Of a stretch of DNA of 64,000 bases, positions 5,405 to 55,046 are shown in pieces. Numbering within the stretch: the first letter of the stretch is position 1; every line of letters starts with the position of its first letter. The stretch comes from Brumimicrobium glaciale (lineage in GTDB: Bacteria; Bacteroidota; Bacteroidia; Flavobacteriales_D; Crocinitomicaceae), in assembly GCF_004152935.1 (NCBI RefSeq), contig NZ_SETE01000002.1:186001-250000 (forward strand), given 5' to 3'. Both the position numbers and the translations under genes were made by a program. The notes under the pieces are model-generated. The model was not told where the DNA came from, did no database searches, and saw nothing but the letters and a program-made list of their open reading frames with translations.

Positions 5405-5453
5405 AAATTTCTGAAAAGATTATGTCTTTTGAATATTTGGCGATTTGGTTTGG

Positions 5454-6455
5454 GGCGATTTGCAAATCGCCCGTACCATCGCAGTGCTTTTGCTGTTGCA
5501 AAAGAGGTGAAAAAGTCATTCATTCTGTGAAGTAGATATTATGAGCTAGAAAGCATTAGATCAGTCGATGCACTTGGGACGATTTGCAAATCGTCCGTAC
5601 CAGTCACAGTGCTTTTGCTGTTGCAAAAGAGGTGAAAAAGTCATTCATTCTGTGAAGTAGATATTATGAGCTAGAAAGCATTGGATCAGTCGATGTACTT
5701 GGGACGATTTGCAAATCGTCCGTACCAGTCGCAGTGCTTTTGCTGTTGCAAAAGAGGTGAAAAAGTCATTCATTCTGTGAAGTAGATATTTATGAGCTAG
5801 AAAGCATTAGATTAGTCGATGCGCTTGGGACGATTTGCAAATCGTCCGTACCAGTCGCAGTGCTTTTGCTGTTGCAAAAGAGGTGAAAAAGTCATTCATA
5901 CTGTAAATTAGATATTATGAGCTAGAAAGCATTAGATCAGTCGATGTACTTGGGACGATTTGCAAATCGTCCGTACCAGTCGCAGTGCTTTTGCTGTTGC
6001 AAAAGAGGTGAAAAAGTCATTCATTCTGTGAAGCGGATATTTCTGTGCTAGAAAGCATTAGATCAGTCGATGCACTTGGGACGATTTGCAAATCGTCCGT
6101 ACCATCGCAGTGCTTTTGCTGTTGCAAAAGAGGTGAAAAAGTCATTCATTCTGCGAAGCAGATATTTCTGTGCTAGAAAGCATTAGATTAGTCGATGCAC
6201 TTGGCACGATTTGCAAATCGTCCGTACCAGTCGCAGTGCTTTTGCTGTTGCAAAAGAGGTGAAAAAGTCATTCATTCTGTGAGGTAGATATTTCTGTGCT
6301 AGAAAGCATTAGATCAGTCGATGTACTTGGGACGATTTGCAAATCGTCCGTAACAGTCGCAGTGCTTTTGCTGTTGCAAAAGAGGTAAAAAAGTCATTCA
6401 CTCTGTGAAGTAGATATTATGAGCTAGAAAGCTCTAGAGCAAGCGATGCACTAAG
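5454..6455. repeat. tandem array of eight ~125-bp hairpin units
   Basis: Eight near-identical units start at 5454, 5578, 5703, 5829, 5954, 6080, 6205 and 6331 (periods 124-126 bp). Each begins with the 18-base perfect palindrome GACGATTTGCAAATCGTC, then carries a second hairpin CTTTTGC-TGTT-GCAAAAG, then the conserved block AGTCATTCATTCTGTGAAG and GCTAGAAAGCATTAGATCAG. Unit 1 has GGCGATTTGCAAATCGCC, a double change that keeps the palindrome; unit 7 has one arm base changed. The period is not a multiple of three and the units contain stops, so this is not coding. The array fills a convergent gap between the NUDIX and OmpA genes. There are no variable spacers, so it is not CRISPR. Confidence 0.9.
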
Positions 6456-6467
6456 CCTGTCGAATGT

Positions 6468-6843
6468 GGCGCATCTTGTTTTGAAATCCAAGGAGCTGAC
6501 TTTTGTCAGTGACTGTTTTTAAAACTCGGTACAACGCAGATATTGAACTTTCTTTTGAAGACTAATTATTAAAAGTGGTATTTCTGAGCTAGAAAGCTCT
6601 AGATCAAGGCGCATCTTGTTTTGAAATCCAAAGAGCTGACTTTTGTCAGTGACTGTTTTCAAAACAAGATGCAACGCAGATATTGAACTTTCTTTTGAAG
6701 ACTAATTATTAAAAGTGGTATTTCTGAGCTAGAAAGCTCTAGATCAAGGCGCATCTTGTTTTGAAATCCAAGGAGCTGACTTTTGTCAGTGACTGTTTTC
6801 AAAACTAGATGCAACGCAGTTATTGAGCTTTCTAGCTCAGAAA
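6468..6843. repeat. three 140-bp stem-loop units directly after the 125-bp array
   Basis: Units begin at 6468, 6608 and 6748 with GGCGCATCTTG. In the middle unit GCATCTTGTTTTGAAA (6611-6626) pairs perfectly with 6657-6672, and an inner hairpin CTGAC-TTTT-GTCAG lies at 6636-6649. The first and third units have imperfect right arms. The last unit is also enclosed by an outer 19-base inverted repeat (6721-6739 with 6825-6843) that ends flush with the OmpA stop codon. The constant right border AACGCAG-TATTGA recurs in dispersed elements at 37421, 49840 and 53347. Confidence 0.88.
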
Positions 6844-7701
6844 TTAGATGAATTTAAAATGCACTCGCCTATTCCTCTGTTTCCCGGCTTTCGTTTTATT
6901 CGTATCAATCGGTTGTCTTTTCCCTTTAAAATCTATTTCTAGTTTTTCGGGTTCTATTCCTTGTTTTTTGAAATAGTCTTTAATTGCATTTGCGCGGCGT
7001 TCGGAAAGTCCAATATTGTATTGATCTGTTCCAACAGCGTCGGTGTGACCGGTTATTTCAACACGTAAATCATGGATTCCGTCTAATACTCTTGCCATTC
7101 TATTTAGATATTCATTAAACTCAGGTTTGATTTCAGACATGTCATGGTCAAAAAATATAGGTTGAAATTTGAACTTTTGTTGTTCAAGTTTCATGATTTC
7201 TGGAGCAGGATATCCTTTTTTGTAGGCTTTTACAAATCTGTGTTTCCAAAGATGTGTTGATGCCGACTCTTTTTCCATGTTGACTTTGTGATCAGATCTG
7301 AAGATAACGACTTCTCCTTGAATATTTCGACAATCAGAGCTTTTAAAAGTTCCTTTTAGATAGGCAGTTGAATCGTTATATTCTAAAGTGTAATCTAGTT
7401 TGCAAATTGGAGAGTTCCTGGTATTCGATGAGCGACGTCCTAATTTTTCGGTTAAAGTTAAAGCACTTCCATCCTGTTTTCCTTCGAAGGATTTCACTGC
7501 AAATTCAGCATCATCTAGTAATTCCACCCTAGCTATTCCAGTGATCTGTTTTCCGCTCTGTTCTATTTTCAAATAGATGATATCCGCTTTTTCTAATTCT
7601 TGACCGTTGGTTATTAATATTCCCGACCAAGTTCCAGAAAGATCTTGTGCCATTGCATTTACTGCAATTAAGAATAGGATAAAAAGTAGTTTTTTCTTCA
7701 T
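6844..7701 (-). CDS. exported OmpA-family protein
   Basis: The start at 7701 was chosen because it opens a clean signal peptide (MKKKLLFILFLIAVNAMAQ), giving 285 residues; a longer frame from 7740 would bury it. The N-terminal half is a small beta-rich domain (DLSGTWSGILITNGQ...). The C-terminal 110 residues are an OmpA/MotB peptidoglycan-binding domain with FFDHDMSEIKPEF, ITGHTDAVGTDQYNIGLSERR and the closing RNRRVHFKFI. These residues (Asp and Arg of NxxLSxxRA) normally bind diaminopimelate, anchoring an outer-membrane or periplasmic protein to the cell wall. The gene is convergent with the NUDIX gene across the repeat arrays. Confidence 0.88.
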   Translation of the reverse strand: MKKKLLFILFLIAVNAMAQDLSGTWSGILITNGQELEKADIIYLKIEQSGKQITGIARVELLDDAEFAVKSFEGKQDGSALTLTEKLGRRSSNTRNSPICKLDYTLEYNDSTAYLKGTFKSSDCRNIQGEVVIFRSDHKVNMEKESASTHLWKHRFVKAYKKGYPAPEIMKLEQQKFKFQPIFFDHDMSEIKPEFNEYLNRMARVLDGIHDLRVEITGHTDAVGTDQYNIGLSERRANAIKDYFKKQGIEPEKLEIDFKGKRQPIDTNKTKAGKQRNRRVHFKFI

Positions 7702-7819
7702 GGATAAGCGCAAAGATTCAAAAAATGTTCCATTTAACAAGAAGTTGAGTGATTTTATAATGTTATTGGTTTTAGTTTTTGATTATTTTTGAAGAATAAA
7801 CAATACCGATAACACTATT

Positions 7820-31489: not shown

Positions 31490-31542
31490 GGTTTTTTAAT
31501 GATGAATTATGAGAGATGAATTATGAATTTTTCAGGGTTCAA

Positions 31543-31830
31543 TCATTGTCAAAGTATTATGTGATTTAAGGATTCAAAAATTGAGAGATTTAAGATTTCA
31601 AAAGGATGAACATTGTACGAAGGAATAATGTAGGGACGTTTTGAAAACGTCCTTATCATTTCCAAAGTATTATGTGATTTAAGGATTCAAAAGTTGAGAG
31701 ATTCAAAATTTCAAAAGGATGAACATTGTACGAAGTGATAATGTAGGTACGTTTTGAAAACGTCCTTATCATTGTCAAAGAATTATGTGATTTAAGGATT
31801 CAAAAATTGAGAGATTCAAATAATTAAGAA
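31543..31830. repeat. 113-bp direct repeat, about 2.5 copies, with palindrome
   Basis: Copies begin at 31543, 31656 and 31769 with TCATTGTCAAAG or TCATTTCCAAAG, followed by GATTTAAGGATTCAAAA and GAGAGATT. The first two copies contain GGACGTTTT-G-AAAACGTCC (the second with GGTACG...), the same form as the palindrome of the 5454 array but with other bases; the third copy is truncated before it. Confidence 0.85.
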
Positions 31831-31860
31831 TTCATGGGTGAAATTTTTATAGAATTTATT

Positions 31861-31900
31861 AATCCAGCTAGATGAGGAAATGTTTAGCTGGATTTCTTTT
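31861..31900 (+). terminator. rho-independent-like terminator
   Basis: AATCCAGCTA (31861-31870) pairs with TAGCTGGATT (31885-31894), followed by TCTTTT. It would end transcription of the amine cluster through gabD. Confidence 0.7.
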
Positions 31901-37322: not shown

Positions 37323-37420
37323 TTAAATATGTTTAATTTAAAATAATGTGAAAAATGTCTTTTTTTACTAGTTTCTTGGTCTTTAAACAAACTATACATC
37401 TTCAATTAGAAAGTTTAAAA

Positions 37421-37520
37421 GACAAGGCTTGCGAATCCGATAACTATCGGATTTTAAATATTTAGGCGTTTATCTTTATAAACAACTGAATTTTAAAACG
37501 AGCATAACGCAGGATTTTAA
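37421..37520. repeat. dispersed stem-loop element, GACAAGGCTTG family
   Basis: GACAAGGCTTGCGAA starts the element and CGAGCATAACGCAGG ends it. An inner perfect hairpin AATCCGAT-AACT-ATCGGATT lies at 37434-37453. The borders match the element at 49840 and, in layout, the 140-bp units at 6468. It fills the gap between the two DEAD-box genes. Confidence 0.65.
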
Positions 37521-37535
37521 ATTTTCTAACGAAGA

Positions 37536-38831
37536 TTAATTATTCTCTCTCCAATAATTCGCCAATACCTTTTCAATCAATTCTTCTTTCGTTAAATGAT
37601 GAAATATAGTTTTAACCTGTGTTTTTAATTCTTCGGGCATTTGACGATTGGGTTTAGTTTTGAAAACTTTTTTGGCCCAAACCAAAGTATTATTTTCTTC
37701 AATGTCATCCGCATTTGCTTTTTCAACGGGTTTGAAGTGAATTCCAAGTTCCTTTTCAAAACCAGCAATTTCTTCAACTTCTTCCTTTTGAATAATTGTC
37801 ATTGAAAGCCCCTTAGCTCCTGCTCTTCCTGTTCTCCCGCTTCTGTGAACATAAGCTTCGTGCGTATCAGGAAGATGATAATTTACGATATAAGCCAATT
37901 CTTTAACGTCAATTCCCCTAGCTACTAAATCAGTTGCAACAAGAATATCAATGTGACCTTCACGAAATTGATCCATTATTCGATCACGAATTCCTTGCGA
38001 TAAACTCCCGTGCAATGCTCCTGAAGAAATCTTACGAATTGCTAAGTTCTTTGCCAATTTGTTAACTGCTGCTTTGGTTTTACAAAATATAATTCCTCTG
38101 CCTCCTTCTTGTGTACTTAAGAAATGTAAAAGCACATCCAACTTCTCAATTGGTTCAACAACTAAATATTGATGATCAATTCCTTCATGACCTATTGTTG
38201 CCATATCTGAATTTACAGATACCGCACTTTTTGACATGTAATTATGAACAATATCTTTCAAATCGCCCGGCATTGTGGCACTGAACAATAGCGTTCTGCG
38301 TTTTTTAGGCAATGCTTTAAGAATTGGCATCAAGTCATCTTTCAATGCTTGAAACATCTCATCAGCTTCATCTAAAACTAAGTTTTTCAAAGATTTAATG
38401 TCCAACGCATTTTTCTCCAACAAATCTAAAAAACGACCTGGAGTTGCCACTACAATGTGCGTAGGTGATTTCAATTCTTCAACCTGCGTTTTTATCGGTG
38501 CTCCACCCGAAAGTAGTGTGATTGAAACTTCTGGAGAATGTTTAGCATAGTCCACTAGATTCGTATAAATCTGCTGACTCAATTCTCGTGTTGGAGATAA
38601 AATAAGTGTTTGAATACTATCGTTCTCCGTATCGACCATTTGTAACAATGGCAATCCGAAAGCAGCTGTTTTACCCGTTCCAGTTTTCGCAAGCGCTACG
38701 ATATCCTCATTTTGATTGAGAATTATTGGAATAACTTGTTCTTGAATATCTGTTGCTTCAGTTATTTTTAATTCGTTTAATGCTTGTTGAATCTGTGGAT
38801 TGATTCCTAATTCGGATAAAAGTCTGGACAT
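37536..38831 (-). CDS. DEAD-box RNA helicase
   Basis: A 431-residue RNA helicase: Q motif near the N-terminus, then ALAKTGTGKTAAFGLPL (I), LSPTRELSQQI (Ia), ATPGRFLDLL (Ib), LDEADEMFQ (II), LLFSATMP (III) and HRSGRTGRAG (VI). A 55-residue C-terminal extension (RQMPEELKTQVKTIFHHLTK) is not an obvious RNA-binding domain. It probably remodels RNA in ribosome assembly or mRNA decay; cold induction is common in the family. Promoter-like TATCTTTG on this strand lies just upstream. Confidence 0.9.
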   Translation of the reverse strand: MSRLLSELGINPQIQQALNELKITEATDIQEQVIPIILNQNEDIVALAKTGTGKTAAFGLPLLQMVDTENDSIQTLILSPTRELSQQIYTNLVDYAKHSPEVSITLLSGGAPIKTQVEELKSPTHIVVATPGRFLDLLEKNALDIKSLKNLVLDEADEMFQALKDDLMPILKALPKKRRTLLFSATMPGDLKDIVHNYMSKSAVSVNSDMATIGHEGIDHQYLVVEPIEKLDVLLHFLSTQEGGRGIIFCKTKAAVNKLAKNLAIRKISSGALHGSLSQGIRDRIMDQFREGHIDILVATDLVARGIDVKELAYIVNYHLPDTHEAYVHRSGRTGRAGAKGLSMTIIQKEEVEEIAGFEKELGIHFKPVEKANADDIEENNTLVWAKKVFKTKPNRQMPEELKTQVKTIFHHLTKEELIEKVLANYWRENN

Positions 38832-39324: not shown

Positions 39325-39522
39325 AGTCCCGTCGGGACGGCATATTAATAGCCAAGGACGTAAGTCCTTGGTTTAAAACAAATAGATATAATACAAAACC
39401 CAACAAAATCGACCTAATTACATGCAATTAGGTCGATTTTGTTGGGTTTTGTTTCGGTTTGTATCGTTTGGCGGATGGACTTACGTCCATCCCTATTATC
39501 ATGCCGTCCCTCTGGAACTTCG
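39325..39522. repeat. nested inverted-repeat element (REP-like)
   Basis: Left arm: AGTCCCGTCGGGACGGCAT, then ATTAATAGCC and the palindrome CCAAGGACGTAAGTCCTTGG (39352-39371). Right arm: GGATGGACTTACGTCCATCC (39473-39492), then CTATTATC and ATGCCGTCCCTCTGGAACT. The arms are inverted copies with changes, as in REP/BIME-type elements that I recall as common in Bacteroidota genomes. No transposase is present. Confidence 0.75.
39393..39452. repeat. perfect 27-bp hairpin inside the inverted-repeat element
   Basis: 39393-39419 (starting ACAAAACCCAACAAAATCG) is the exact reverse complement of 39426-39452, with a six-base loop ACATGC. No mismatch occurs in 27 pairs. It is centred between the two flanking palindromes and could fold in RNA of either strand or act as a cruciform. 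Confidence 0.9.
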
Positions 39523-49611: not shown

Positions 49612-49938
49612 AGGAAACTTTTTATCGGTTATAATCGTTTTTAAAACGATTGGAAACTTTTAATATAATCTGCTTTTATACTTTAGTTAAGCCATGGCGA
49701 AGGTAAGAAAAAGGTATGAATTCAAGTTGAGGCTAAAGCTATTTTAACGAATGAATTTCAAATATTGCAATCTTAATTAATCCTAAAAGTTTCATAAATA
49801 AAATTCGCATTTTCCGGTCTTTGATAAGAAGACGTTAAAGACAAGGCTTGTGAAGTTTTTAATTTCATGATTTTATATTTATAAATGATTGCAATTAAAA
49901 ACAAGCATAACGAAGTATTTGACGCCTTATTGCAAAGA
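49612..49938. other. 327-bp gap with one repeat element
   Basis: Between aroE and the AlbA_2 gene (both minus). The right half carries the GACAAGGCTTG-family element at 49840-49925; the rest holds nothing I recognise apart from possible promoter sequence for the AlbA_2 gene. Confidence 0.5.
49840..49925. repeat. dispersed stem-loop element, GACAAGGCTTG family (second copy)
   Basis: Begins GACAAGGCTTGTGAAG; TTTTTAATT (49856-49864) pairs with AATTAAAAA (49893-49901) and GCTTG (49846-49850) with CAAGC (49902-49906). Ends CAAGCATAACGAAGTATTTGA. Same borders as the copy at 37421 with different arm and loop sequence. Confidence 0.65.
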
Positions 49939-50691
49939 TTAGCTATTCCATATCTCCCAAGCCCTCCCCGCCTGTTGTTTCAACATAGACAAACCATTTA
50001 AAGTGTCAGCTCCACTTTCTCTTGCTAATTTCAAAAACAAAGTCTCTGATGGATTGTAAATCAAGTCAACTACAAAATGATCTTCTCCAACCAATTCAAT
50101 TGGGAAGTCTGGTTTTTCATTTACATTTGGCGAAGTTCCTAATGGTGTGCAATTCACAATCATTGGAAAAGATTTCACCATTAAATCATTGGCTTGGTCA
50201 TATCCAAAAATCATTTGATCTTCTTTTGGAGTTCTTGATAAATGCGCAACCGTAATTCCTAAGTTTTCTAAAGTATAAGCAACCGCTTTTGAAGCTCCAC
50301 CTGTTCCTAGCAATAAAGCGCGTTCGTGAATATTTCTCAAAAATGGTTTAATGGATTGACCGAAACCAAAAGCATCTGTATTGTGTCCAATTGATTTTCC
50401 ATCTTTAAAATGAATGCAATTTACAGCGCCAATTTTTTTCGCTTCTGGACTTATTTCATCCAAGAAAGGAATCACTGCTTCTTTATATGGAATTGTTACA
50501 CTGACACCAGTAAATTCAGTCGGAGCAGTTTTCATCCACTCTTCTAAAGCTTTGAAATCAGGCAATTCGATATTCTCAAAAGTAGCATCAATCTGTTCTG
50601 CCTCGAATTTCTCCATGAAGTGACTTCTTGAAAAAGAATGTCCAAGCGTTTTACCTAATAATCCAAATTTTATTGTGTCTTGCTGACTCAT
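49939..50691 (-). CDS. aroE: shikimate dehydrogenase
   Basis: A 250-residue enzyme reducing 3-dehydroshikimate to shikimate with NADPH in the aromatic amino acid pathway. The substrate loop TLGHSFSRSHF, the catalytic Lys in VTIPYKEAVIPF, NCIHF and NTDAFGF (catalytic Asp), and the nucleotide-binding LLGTGGASKAVAY are all present. Length is typical of AroE. It is the last gene of a minus-strand chain with DUF368 (two-base gap) and the rhodanese gene. Confidence 0.93.
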   Translation of the reverse strand: MSQQDTIKFGLLGKTLGHSFSRSHFMEKFEAEQIDATFENIELPDFKALEEWMKTAPTEFTGVSVTIPYKEAVIPFLDEISPEAKKIGAVNCIHFKDGKSIGHNTDAFGFGQSIKPFLRNIHERALLLGTGGASKAVAYTLENLGITVAHLSRTPKEDQMIFGYDQANDLMVKSFPMIVNCTPLGTSPNVNEKPDFPIELVGEDHFVVDLIYNPSETLFLKLARESGADTLNGLSMLKQQAGRAWEIWNS

Positions 50692-52250: not shown

Positions 52251-53330
52251 ATGAGTAAAGCAATAACTAAGGAAAGTAAAGAATTTTTAGAGAAATATTT
52301 GAACAATGCATCGCCAACAGGTTTTGAATCATCAGGTCAAAAAATGTGGTTGGAATATATCAAACCATACATTGATGATTATATGGTGGACAATTACGGA
52401 ACTGTGGTTGGAATTATAAATCCAGAAGCGGAATACAAAGTTGTCATTGAAGCACATGCTGATGAGATTGCTTGGTTTGTGCATTATATAACGGATGAAG
52501 GGTTTATTTACGTACGCAGAAATGGAGGTTCAGACCACATGATTGCTCCTTCGAAACGTGTAAATATTCACACAGATAAAGGAATAGTGAAAGCTGTTTT
52601 TGGATGGCCAGCAATTCATACCAGACAAGAAAAAGATCCTAAACCGAGTCTTAAAAACATCACATTAGATTGTGGATGTGACACAAAAGACGAAGTGGAG
52701 AAATTAGGAGTTCATGTAGGTTGTGTTGTAACTTTTGAAGATGAATTCATGATTCTCAACAAAAAACGTTACGTGGGTAGAGCTTTGGATAATCGAGTTG
52801 GTGGATTTATGATTGCACAAGTTGCGAGAATGTTGAAAGAAACTAAAACGAAACTTCCATTCGGATTGTATATTGTGAATTCTGTTCAAGAAGAAATTGG
52901 ATTAAGAGGAGCGCAAATGATTGCTCAGAAAATCAAGCCAGACGTAGCAATTATCACAGATGTTTGTCACGACACAAACACACCAATGATTGACAAAAAA
53001 GAACAAGGAGATTTAAAAGGCGGAAAAGGCCCAGTTTTAACTTATGGTCCAGCGGTTCAGAATAATTTATTGAAATTAATCTTGAAAGCTGCCGAGGAAG
53101 AGAAAATCCCTTTCCAACGCTTGGCTGCTTCAAGAGCAACAGGAACAGACACAGACGCTTTTGCATACAGTAACGATGGAGTTCCATCCGCATTGATTTC
53201 ATTGCCGCTTCGCTACATGCATACGACGGTTGAAATGACGCACGAAGAAGATGTAGAGAATACGATTAAGTTGATTTTCGCTTCGATTAAGAGGATTGAA
53301 AACAAGCAAGACTTTAGATATTTCACATAG
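52251..53330 (+). CDS. M42-family metallopeptidase (glutamyl aminopeptidase type)
   Basis: A 359-residue enzyme of the tetrahedral TET/PepA-type aminopeptidases. Metal ligands and catalytic residues are visible in EAHADEIAWFV (His, Asp), RALDNRVGGF (Asp), QEEIGLRGA (catalytic Glu and ligand), TDVCHDTN (Asp) and YMHTTVEMTHEED (His). It cleaves N-terminal residues from peptides in the cytoplasm. A degenerate promoter box TATCTTTA lies about 15 bases before the ATG. Its terminator is at 53474-53514. Confidence 0.9.
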   Translation: MSKAITKESKEFLEKYLNNASPTGFESSGQKMWLEYIKPYIDDYMVDNYGTVVGIINPEAEYKVVIEAHADEIAWFVHYITDEGFIYVRRNGGSDHMIAPSKRVNIHTDKGIVKAVFGWPAIHTRQEKDPKPSLKNITLDCGCDTKDEVEKLGVHVGCVVTFEDEFMILNKKRYVGRALDNRVGGFMIAQVARMLKETKTKLPFGLYIVNSVQEEIGLRGAQMIAQKIKPDVAIITDVCHDTNTPMIDKKEQGDLKGGKGPVLTYGPAVQNNLLKLILKAAEEEKIPFQRLAASRATGTDTDAFAYSNDGVPSALISLPLRYMHTTVEMTHEEDVENTIKLIFASIKRIENKQDFRYFT

Positions 53331-53346
53331 TTTTTGTTTATAGAAC

Positions 53347-53437
53347 TCAATATCGGCGTTGCACATATTTTTGAAATCAGTCATTGACAAATGTCAACTC
53401 CTTGGATTCCAAAAATAAGCGCGCCTTGCTATTGAGC
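53347..53437 (-). repeat. stem-loop element of the 6468 family, inverted
   Basis: Read on the reverse strand it runs CAAGGCGCGCTTATTTTTGG, AATCCAAGGAGTTGAC-ATTT-GTCAATGACTG, ATTTCAAAAATATGTGCAAC and GCCGATATTGAG, the same layout and inner block (AATCCAAGGAG-TGAC-GTCA-TGACTG) as the 140-bp units at 6468-6843. Inner hairpin TTGAC/GTCAA at 53384-53397. It lies just after the M42 gene. Confidence 0.75.
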
Positions 53438-53473
53438 TATATAATTCAAAAACTAGGTTTCGGTATTTTGACT

Positions 53474-53808: not shown

Positions 53809-54218
53809 TCTTATCTAACTTTTAAAAATTCTTTCTTTGCTTGCAGTTATTTTTGATTGATGAAGGTAACGCATTTTGAGATTCCATGAAATTAGAGTTC
53901 GTTTTTCTTCACAGATCCTTAGTTCAAACGCAATATTCTAAACCCATCGAATTCGATGGGTTTAAAATTCCAATCCAAATAACAGATATTCTAATTAACC
54001 CGAAATCGGTACAATTAGAAATTATTAGTTCTAGATTTTCTAGATTTTAAAGTGATCGAATTCTAACATTTTAAAAACTCTAATCCAGTCTTACGCCTCA
54101 ATCAATTGGTTGACTTATAATTACATCAAAAATAAATCAATTAAAACATTTATGGAGGCAATTATTTTCATATCTTAAATAAGCGTTTAAAAAATCAATA
54201 ACCACAAACACTTAAATC
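53809..54218. other. 410-bp region upstream of the KilA-N gene
   Basis: No frame is convincing. It contains the upstream copy of the 26-bp palindrome at 53939-53964 and AT-rich sequence that may include the promoters of the divergent small membrane gene and the KilA-N gene. Confidence 0.5.
53939..53964. promoter_or_regulatory. 26-bp perfect palindrome, upstream copy
   Basis: The left half is TAAACCCATCGAA and the right half is its exact reverse complement. The same 26 bases occur inside the KilA-N gene 480 bp downstream. The neighbouring bases differ between the two copies, so it is not part of a longer repeat. It could be an operator for a dimeric DNA-binding protein, perhaps the KilA-N product. 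Inference only. Confidence 0.5.
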
Positions 54219-55046
54219 ATGGCAAAAAATAAAACAATAAATGTAAAAGGATTTGATGTAGTTTTCTATCAAAACAAGAAGGAAGATTTCATTTCTCTAA
54301 CCGATATTGCAAAGTATAAGGACAGTTAAAGGACTGATTACATTATTCAAAATTGGTTACGAAATAGAAATACCATTGAGCTTTTAGGCCTGTGGGAGAC
54401 AATGAACAACAAAAGTTTTAAACCCATCGAATTCGATGGGTTTAGAAAACAGGCAGGATTAAATAGTTTTACATTAACCTCAAAACAATGGATTGAAAAG
54501 ACAAATGCAATTGGCTTGGTATCCAAACAAGGTAGATATGGCGGTACTTTTGCACATAAAGATATTGCTTTTGAGTTTGCATCTTGGATCTCAGTTGAAT
54601 TCAAACTTTATATAATCAAAGAATTTCAACGACTAAAAGAGGATGAAAATGACCGATTAAGTCTTGAATGGAACTTGCAGCGCACACTCTCTAAAATCAA
54701 TTACAAAATTCACACAGACGCTATTAAAGAAAACATTGTCCCTAATCTAATTTCACAATCACAAATTAACTTCGCTTATGCAAGTGAAGCTGATTTATTA
54801 AATGTGGCGCTTTTTGGAATGACTTCAAAACAATGGAAAAGGGAGAATCCAGATTTAAAAACCAACATGCGAGATGAAGCAAACATAGAGCAATTGGTTG
54901 TTATGAGTAATATGGAAAGTATAAATGCTTTATTGATTGAACAAGGTTTACCACAAAAAGAAAGGCTTATTCAACTCAATAAAGTAGCTATTATGCAAAT
55001 GAAATCACTTTTGGCTAATGAAGATTTGAAGAAATTAGATCCATGA
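54219..55046 (+). pseudogene. KilA-N domain protein with in-frame TAA at codon 37
   Basis: From ATG at 54219 the frame reads MAKNKTINVKGFDVVFYQNK, then DFISLTDIAKYKDS and a stop at 54327-54329, then continues RTDYIIQNWLRNRNTIELLG and on to 55046 (275 codons plus stop, one interruption). The DIAKYKDS*RTDYIIQNWLRN sequence is the standard KilA-N/ANT-type DNA-binding domain in which a single codon has become TAA (GAA or AAA would be expected). The rest has FKPIEFDGFRKQAG, GRYGGTFAHKDIAFEFASWI and a coiled C-terminus. KilA-N proteins are phage/plasmid-derived DNA-binding proteins. Translation might restart at ATG 54402, but that lacks the N-terminal half of the domain. Confidence 0.75.
54419..54444. 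promoter_or_regulatory. 26-bp perfect palindrome inside the KilA-N gene
   Basis: Identical to 53939-53964. Here the bases encode K-P-I-E-F-D-G-F, a conserved part of the KilA-N family, with the axis between the GAA and TTC codons. Confidence 0.5.

Follow-up and report, generated by a model that had tools for sequence, protein, structure and literature searches.

The six sites at four places in the window, meaning the whole 64-kb stretch of Brumimicrobium DNA that was analysed, form one element family by sequence and by covariance models, and the copies probably represent a non-autonomous, MITE-like mobile element of ~130-190 bp with a folded core. The element appears to be an undescribed variant of the bacterial mobile palindromes, spread across the phylum Bacteroidota. 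BLAST with one query per type defined two subfamilies genome-wide, A (the 53347 and 6468 type) and B (the 49840 and 37421 type), for which covariance models R1 and R2 were built, respectively, together with a phylum-wide model R3 trained mostly on other genomes and on four other copies of the window genome, none of them from the window. R3 matched all six window sites with E-values between 9.6e-5 and 2.1e-24 and nothing else in the 64 kb, while R2 recognized the subfamily A copy at 53321 (E=4e-15) and R1 the subfamily B copy at 49809 (E=1.5e-10). This cross-detection by models not trained on them establishes that the elements named in the initial annotation (37421, 49840, the inverted one at 53347 and three units at 6468) are genuine and belong together. 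The window copies, their conserved loop strands and the genes whose 3′ ends face them are as follows.

37389..37535 (+): subfamily B copy, the study element; R2 match 37390-37545, 113.9 bits, E=2e-23 (in R2 training); R3 E=1.9e-12 (not in training)
37423..37428 (+): conserved loop strand CAAGGC of this copy, by sequence; constant in alignments A2-A5
~37434-37453: 15-nt palindrome inserted in the middle stem of this copy
37506..37512 (+): conserved loop strand AACGCAG of this copy, by sequence
37536..38831 (-): DEAD-box helicase gene facing this copy (Pfam PF00270/PF00271)
49812..49938 (+): intact subfamily B copy; R3 E=2e-24 (not in training); R2 134.3 bits (in training); R1 E=1.5e-10
49842..49847 (+): conserved loop strand CAAGGC of this copy, by sequence
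49909..49915 (+): conserved loop strand AACGAAG of this copy, by sequence
49939..50691 (-): shikimate dehydrogenase gene facing this copy (Pfam PF08501)
53331..53452 (-): subfamily A copy; R3 E=1e-15 and R2 E=4e-15 (not in training); R1 142.3 bits (in training); also by sequence
52251..53330 (+): M42 aminopeptidase gene facing this copy (Pfam PF05343)
6408-6853 (+): tandem triple of subfamily A, whole extent
6408..6571 (+): first unit of the triple, partly broken, subfamily A; R2 E=3e-6; R1 core match 6468-6539; R3 E=9.6e-5 (at 6478)
6572..6711 (+): second unit, subfamily A; R1 113.8 bits; R3 E=3e-13
6712..6843 (+): third unit, subfamily A; R1 138.7 bits; R3 E=1.3e-16
6844..7740 (-): OmpA-family protein gene facing the triple (Pfam PF00691)

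Each copy is a rod of ~130 nt that folds in silico from a single strand and consists, from 5′ to 3′, of an outer stem P1, a small bulge, P2, an internal loop CAAGGC/AACGCAG, a middle stem P3, a second internal loop GGAG/TGA(C/G), whose strands could form tandem G.A pairs, and a terminal hairpin P4. The stems vary yet pair, and the two internal loops are constant across the phylum. The positions first given to the elements were in the right places but too short, 37421-37520 covering only the inner part of ~37389-37535. The entry CAAGGC was read correctly, and a conserved exit strand does exist, although it is precisely AACGCAG, preceded by GC in subfamily A or CAT in subfamily B, and the AG-TATTGA tail assigned to it is the start of the variable outer stem. 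What had been taken for constant borders is thus constant, but consists of internal-loop nucleotides in the middle of the hairpin rather than of the element ends. Some copies carry extra palindromes nested in P3 or at the apex.

Covariation supports the fold. In the subfamily A alignment, 24 of 48 pairs changed on both sides with 88% of cells paired; the corresponding figures were 18 of 47 and 92% for subfamily B, and 33 of 46 and 87% for a 24-sequence alignment from many genera. None of 500 shuffles reached any of five measures in each of these three curated alignments, and slid registers lowered pairing to ~40-50%, so that the original observation of arms that vary and still pair withstood the covariance test. 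The constancy of the core CAAGGCTTGTG/AGCATAACGCAG in the 24-sequence alignment arises partly by construction, as that pattern served to retrieve most of its sequences; the core pattern played no part in finding the copies of subfamily A and of the G214/f18 group, which nevertheless retain CAAGGC (or a near variant) together with AACGCAG, GGAG and TGA.

The nested palindromes observed in the apex or middle stem include CCGATAGCTATCGG, TCCCGAC..GTCGGGA and GCCCTGxGC..GCCTGTCGAAG..TCGATGGG (window 37434-37453 and loci L031, L040, L035, L043 and L096), and a TCCCG-type P4 recurs in distant genera. Shortened copies were seen at L074 (G000:C1:97933-98034) and at G000:C1:277925-277995, the former retaining the outer stems and an AGGC/AACGCAG loop, with the inner hairpin absent and the middle stem closed into a near-perfect palindrome.

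The search of the complete genome and of related genomes with covariance models, as had been proposed, revealed ~45 or more copies in the window genome (BLAST plus covariance matches) and homologues elsewhere; the subfamily models gave 53 and 46 matches, which include opposite-strand palindrome echoes and cross-subfamily matches. R2 matches occurred in 6 of 10 Brumimicrobium genomes, three of which (G002, G003 and G004) have element and flank sequences identical to B. mesophilum, B. oceani and B. salinarum. The core pattern is present in Fulvivirga, Brumimicrobium, Cryomorpha, Labilibacter, Crocinitomix, Saprospiraceae and Cyclobacteriaceae, and also in Bacteroidaceae and Bacteroidales MAGs, Chlorobiota MAGs and one Deltaproteobacteria MAG. 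Among at most 150 candidates scored per genome, 18 of these genomes held 3 to 142 copies each, with at least 139 in Fulvivirga imtechensis and at least 142 in a Saprospiraceae MAG. Under strict filters, at least 11 of 395 sampled genomes of the phylum had matches, a lower bound given that scoring was limited to 8 candidates in each genome. Such a patchy distribution is what a mobile element would show. Searches of plasmids and viral contigs gave no match to the element, nor did Rfam 15, either for five loci even at E<=1 or for the window at gathering scores, and we found no paper describing the element in a library of open-access literature.

Mobility is seen in G214, a probably Chlorobium-like relative in the f18/g60 group, which contains ~69 copies, many of them 94-100% identical, at unrelated places. 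Exact 4-bp repeats (ATAA, ATGA, TAAT, TTTA, TAAA, TTAT, ATTA and TACA) flank 18 of 19 young copies (shuffled mean 2.8, maximum 9), and the ends are GGGC(A/G)CCTCTATTTATT and its complement, that is, GGGCRCC...GGTGCCC, with terminal inverted repeats GGGCRCCTCTATTTATT / AATAAATAAATAGAGGTGCCC. In Fulvivirga, the terminal inverted repeats are AGTGTYTGTAAGAAAAC / GTTTTCTTAnAGACACT; by eye, elements of the Fulvivirga/Brumimicrobium type have ends AGTGTC...GACACT and a duplicated 4-bp ANNT within TANNTA, a reading that, again by eye, also fits L108 and L071. A script detected duplications in 16 of 57 testable copies from Fulvivirga, MAGs and Brumimicrobium (shuffled mean 3.2, maximum 9). Reading the Fulvivirga duplication as 5 bp (ANNTA), as this script did, was rejected, since the symmetric ends AGTGTC/GACACT give 4 bp. 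The two types of termini and targets (AGTGTC and GGGC) might represent two mobile frameworks sharing one core.

Empty sites point in the same direction. An insertion in G214 (L304) is matched by an empty orthologous site in G234 and G178, diverged around the junction so that the cut is not fixed to the base, whereas another (L308) is common to all three genomes, and when orthologous genes are compared between Brumimicrobium species, the element follows a given stop codon in some species and is missing there in others. Target-site duplications, for which the initial annotation had recommended looking, therefore exist in the family, mostly in other genomes; the window copies, which are old, show no clear one, and their mobility is deduced from the family. 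Both halves of the suggestion that this is a mobile or RNA-structured element are supported, the first by target-site duplications and presence/absence polymorphism and the second by compensatory pairing. Tandem clusters of 2-4 copies (G000:C3:369713-370531 and L092 in G004:C65) suggest local amplification.

When the element inserts, 4 bp of AT-rich target are duplicated. Such duplications naturally point to a staggered-cut (DDE-type) enzyme, and we propose that a trans-acting transposase moves the element. A transposase with matching ends, as the initial annotation had recommended looking for, was sought by an end-pattern search in three genomes and by scans of the element loci and was not found: among the listed places in these three element-rich genomes, no end pair lay 1-3 kb apart as expected of an autonomous copy, and the end pairs in the scanned loci enclosed only host genes or nested copies. 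One candidate 1.1-kb autonomous element (L137) was rejected because it holds a host housekeeping gene.

An alternative enzyme would be a RAYT or IS200-like transposase acting on a REP-type element, which we consider unlikely. Like GTAG REPs, whose termini often supply the stop codon (PMC3733652), the present copies are palindromic, dispersed and downstream of genes, and Y1/RAYT genes are present in all ten Brumimicrobium genomes. Their occurrence, however, does not track the element, as RAYT-like genes exist in the element-free genomes G005 and G008, whereas in G003 elements are present and a long RAYT is absent. No Y1 gene was flanked by the element at 34 Y1 loci scanned with R3 and R1, 30 of these also with R2, which gave weak, chance-level matches only, and the aligned ends (A3-A5) have no GTAG or CGTC tag at the hairpin foot. 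Single-strand HUH transposition is not expected to generate target duplications, and the 4-bp duplications thus further argue against this mechanism.

The duplications also bear on the idea that the copies are integron-type attC recombination sites, which likewise lie directly after stop codons and keep their structure while the arms vary; in addition, a GTTATGC near the element core recalls an attC R box. Tyrosine recombinases do not leave such 4-bp duplications, the copies follow single dispersed housekeeping genes rather than forming cassette arrays, and the asymmetric conserved loops show no pairing of the kind seen between the attC R and L boxes, making this origin highly improbable.

The placement of the copies relative to genes is strongly one-sided. 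In 46 of 63 Brumimicrobium copies, a long ORF points at the element and has its stop codon no more than 15 nt from the right end, compared with 2.7% of draws for random non-coding positions at the same loci; the left side is at a stop codon in 1 copy, or 5 when an 85-nt left arm is allowed. Outside Brumimicrobium, the right end is at a stop codon in 20 of 41 copies and the left end in 2 of 41. Within the window, the right ends of the 49812..49938 copy (L023) and of the third tandem unit (L051) meet the stop codons of the genes at 49939-50691(-) and 6844-7740(-), respectively, and the 53331..53452 copy lies directly after the stop codon at 53328-53330 of the 52251-53330(+) gene. The distance from stop codon to element is mostly 0-5 nt, and the docked stop codons are TAG, TAA or TGA, indicating that the element does not simply bring a fixed stop codon with it. 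Junctions often have the form T|AG, with the AG supplied by the element end, and the host genes are mixed housekeeping genes with no common function.

The element thus lies preferentially at stop codons with its right end towards the gene. These junctions suggest that, where it inserts at the T of a stop codon (ANN-T^AR), its AG would restore TAG and leave the protein unchanged; such insertions would survive because the gene stays intact. Neither TAG restoration nor the palindromic target explains the one-sided orientation. Young G214 copies show a weaker stop-codon bias, various distances to stops and no clear orientation, which implies either lineage-specific targeting or a pattern that selection makes sharper over time.

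The intrinsic terminator of the gene itself lies beyond the element at several loci, and intrinsic-terminator-like sequence also follows the 53331..53452 copy. For the L048 gene, compared between G000/G001/G002 and G004/G009, the terminator directly follows the stop codon where the element is absent. Given its position between stop codon and terminator, the element is probably transcribed as part of the 3′ UTR of its host gene. The copies might alternatively be ordinary intrinsic terminators, alike by chance or convergence, as they are hairpins downstream of stop codons; this reading, to which we give next to no weight, is refuted by the target duplications flanking near-identical copies at unrelated loci and by the separate terminator at the same loci, and the constant internal loops common across phyla also speak against it.

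A stronger alternative, to which we assign substantial though less than even weight, is that the element is a functional 3′-UTR RNA under selection, which folds in the transcript 0-5 nt past the stop codon and tunes termination or protects the mRNA end, mobility serving only to spread it. Ribosome stalling is described for E. coli REPs located up to 15 nt from a stop codon (PMC12306157), and the orientation of the present element to the gene is the same in distant genera. A comparison of 13 orthologous pairs gave 29 stem pairs in which changes on both sides preserved pairing, 15 in which a change on a single side did so and 58 in which pairing was lost, while core loop bases were 91% identical compared with 66% in the nearby noncoding flank. 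By our estimate, independent change would give only few kept double changes, so the compensation is real. This pattern is compatible with selection on the fold and also with correction of palindromes during replication, which could likewise keep the arms paired. Many orthologues, however, have no element, and the inner hairpin was lost in three (G003 L167, G004 L180 and G001 L199); the lack of a common function among the housekeeping hosts and the scattered distances of young G214 copies from stops further weaken the case for a selected RNA.

Returning to the MITE-like mobile element, its constant loops may be the feature that some protein recognizes, on ssDNA, on a cruciform or on RNA. We tentatively speculate, with the odds rather against so specific a scheme, that the identity of the element resides in its folded core, that a trans factor reads this core and that insertion occurs through the stop codon in a fixed orientation; dozens to hundreds of genes would thereby come to carry one common structured 3′ UTR, possibly a switch that acts on translation termination or mRNA decay in all of them.

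The element has the traits of MITEs in being short, non-coding (no ORF is carried) and multi-copy, with target duplications and terminal inverted repeats, and it resembles BrickBuilt of Porphyromonas gingivalis (PMC4596501), which is also short, non-coding and intergenic and has many copies, terminal inverted repeats and target duplications. In MITEs, however, the ends are constant and supplied by an insertion sequence, whereas here the central folded core is constant across the phylum, the ends and stems differ between lineages and no parent insertion sequence was found in three genomes and the element loci; a folded core that stays fixed while the ends vary turns the usual arrangement of MITEs around. 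REPs are 20-40 bp with a GTAG or CGTC tag, the GTAG type being tied to RAYTs (PMC3733652). With the REPs and BIMEs of the GTAG and CGTC superfamilies (PMC3733652) the element shares dispersed palindromes, variable paired stems, a position mostly just downstream of genes and termini that often give TAG, but it differs in its 130-190 bp, two internal loops, 4-bp target duplications and missing RAYT link. The element thus works like a MITE and sits like a REP, yet fails the REP tests of tag, RAYT and absence of duplication. As in the ribosome-stalling E. coli REPs, a stable hairpin stands in the 3′ UTR by the stop codon, and by analogy the same effect is predicted, although the present element lies mostly 0-5 nt from the stop and on one side only. 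Strong covariation and constant internal loops are also typical of the structured RNA families in Rfam, none of which it matches in release 15.

If our interpretation is right, these copies add a large and as yet unlisted family to the bacterial mobile palindromes, in a phylum for which such elements have been little described, and pose the testable question of how stop codons and one orientation are picked. Each genome would also offer dozens of natural 3′ UTRs in which the same fixed structure stands 0-5 nt past the stop codon, a ready test of hairpin effects on termination, ribosome rescue and mRNA stability in bacteria.

Other repeats were observed in the window. About seven tandem 125-nt units occupy 5413-6452, directly before the triple element copy, and as the unit ends (GAGCTAGAAAGC..., ...AGTAGATATTATGAGC) look like decayed element arms, this array may derive from the element. 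A 113-nt unit is present in three tandem copies at 31542-31880, a stretch with no long ORF, and a 32-nt palindromic repeat, TTCTAAACCCATCGAATTCGATGGGTTTAAAA, is found at 53936-53967 and 54416-54447, the second copy at the start of a KilA-N gene. The sole curated RNA in the window (Rfam, gathering scores) is an Acido-Lenti-1 RNA (RF01687, 46.8 bits) at 39325-39371 (-), between two minus-strand genes.
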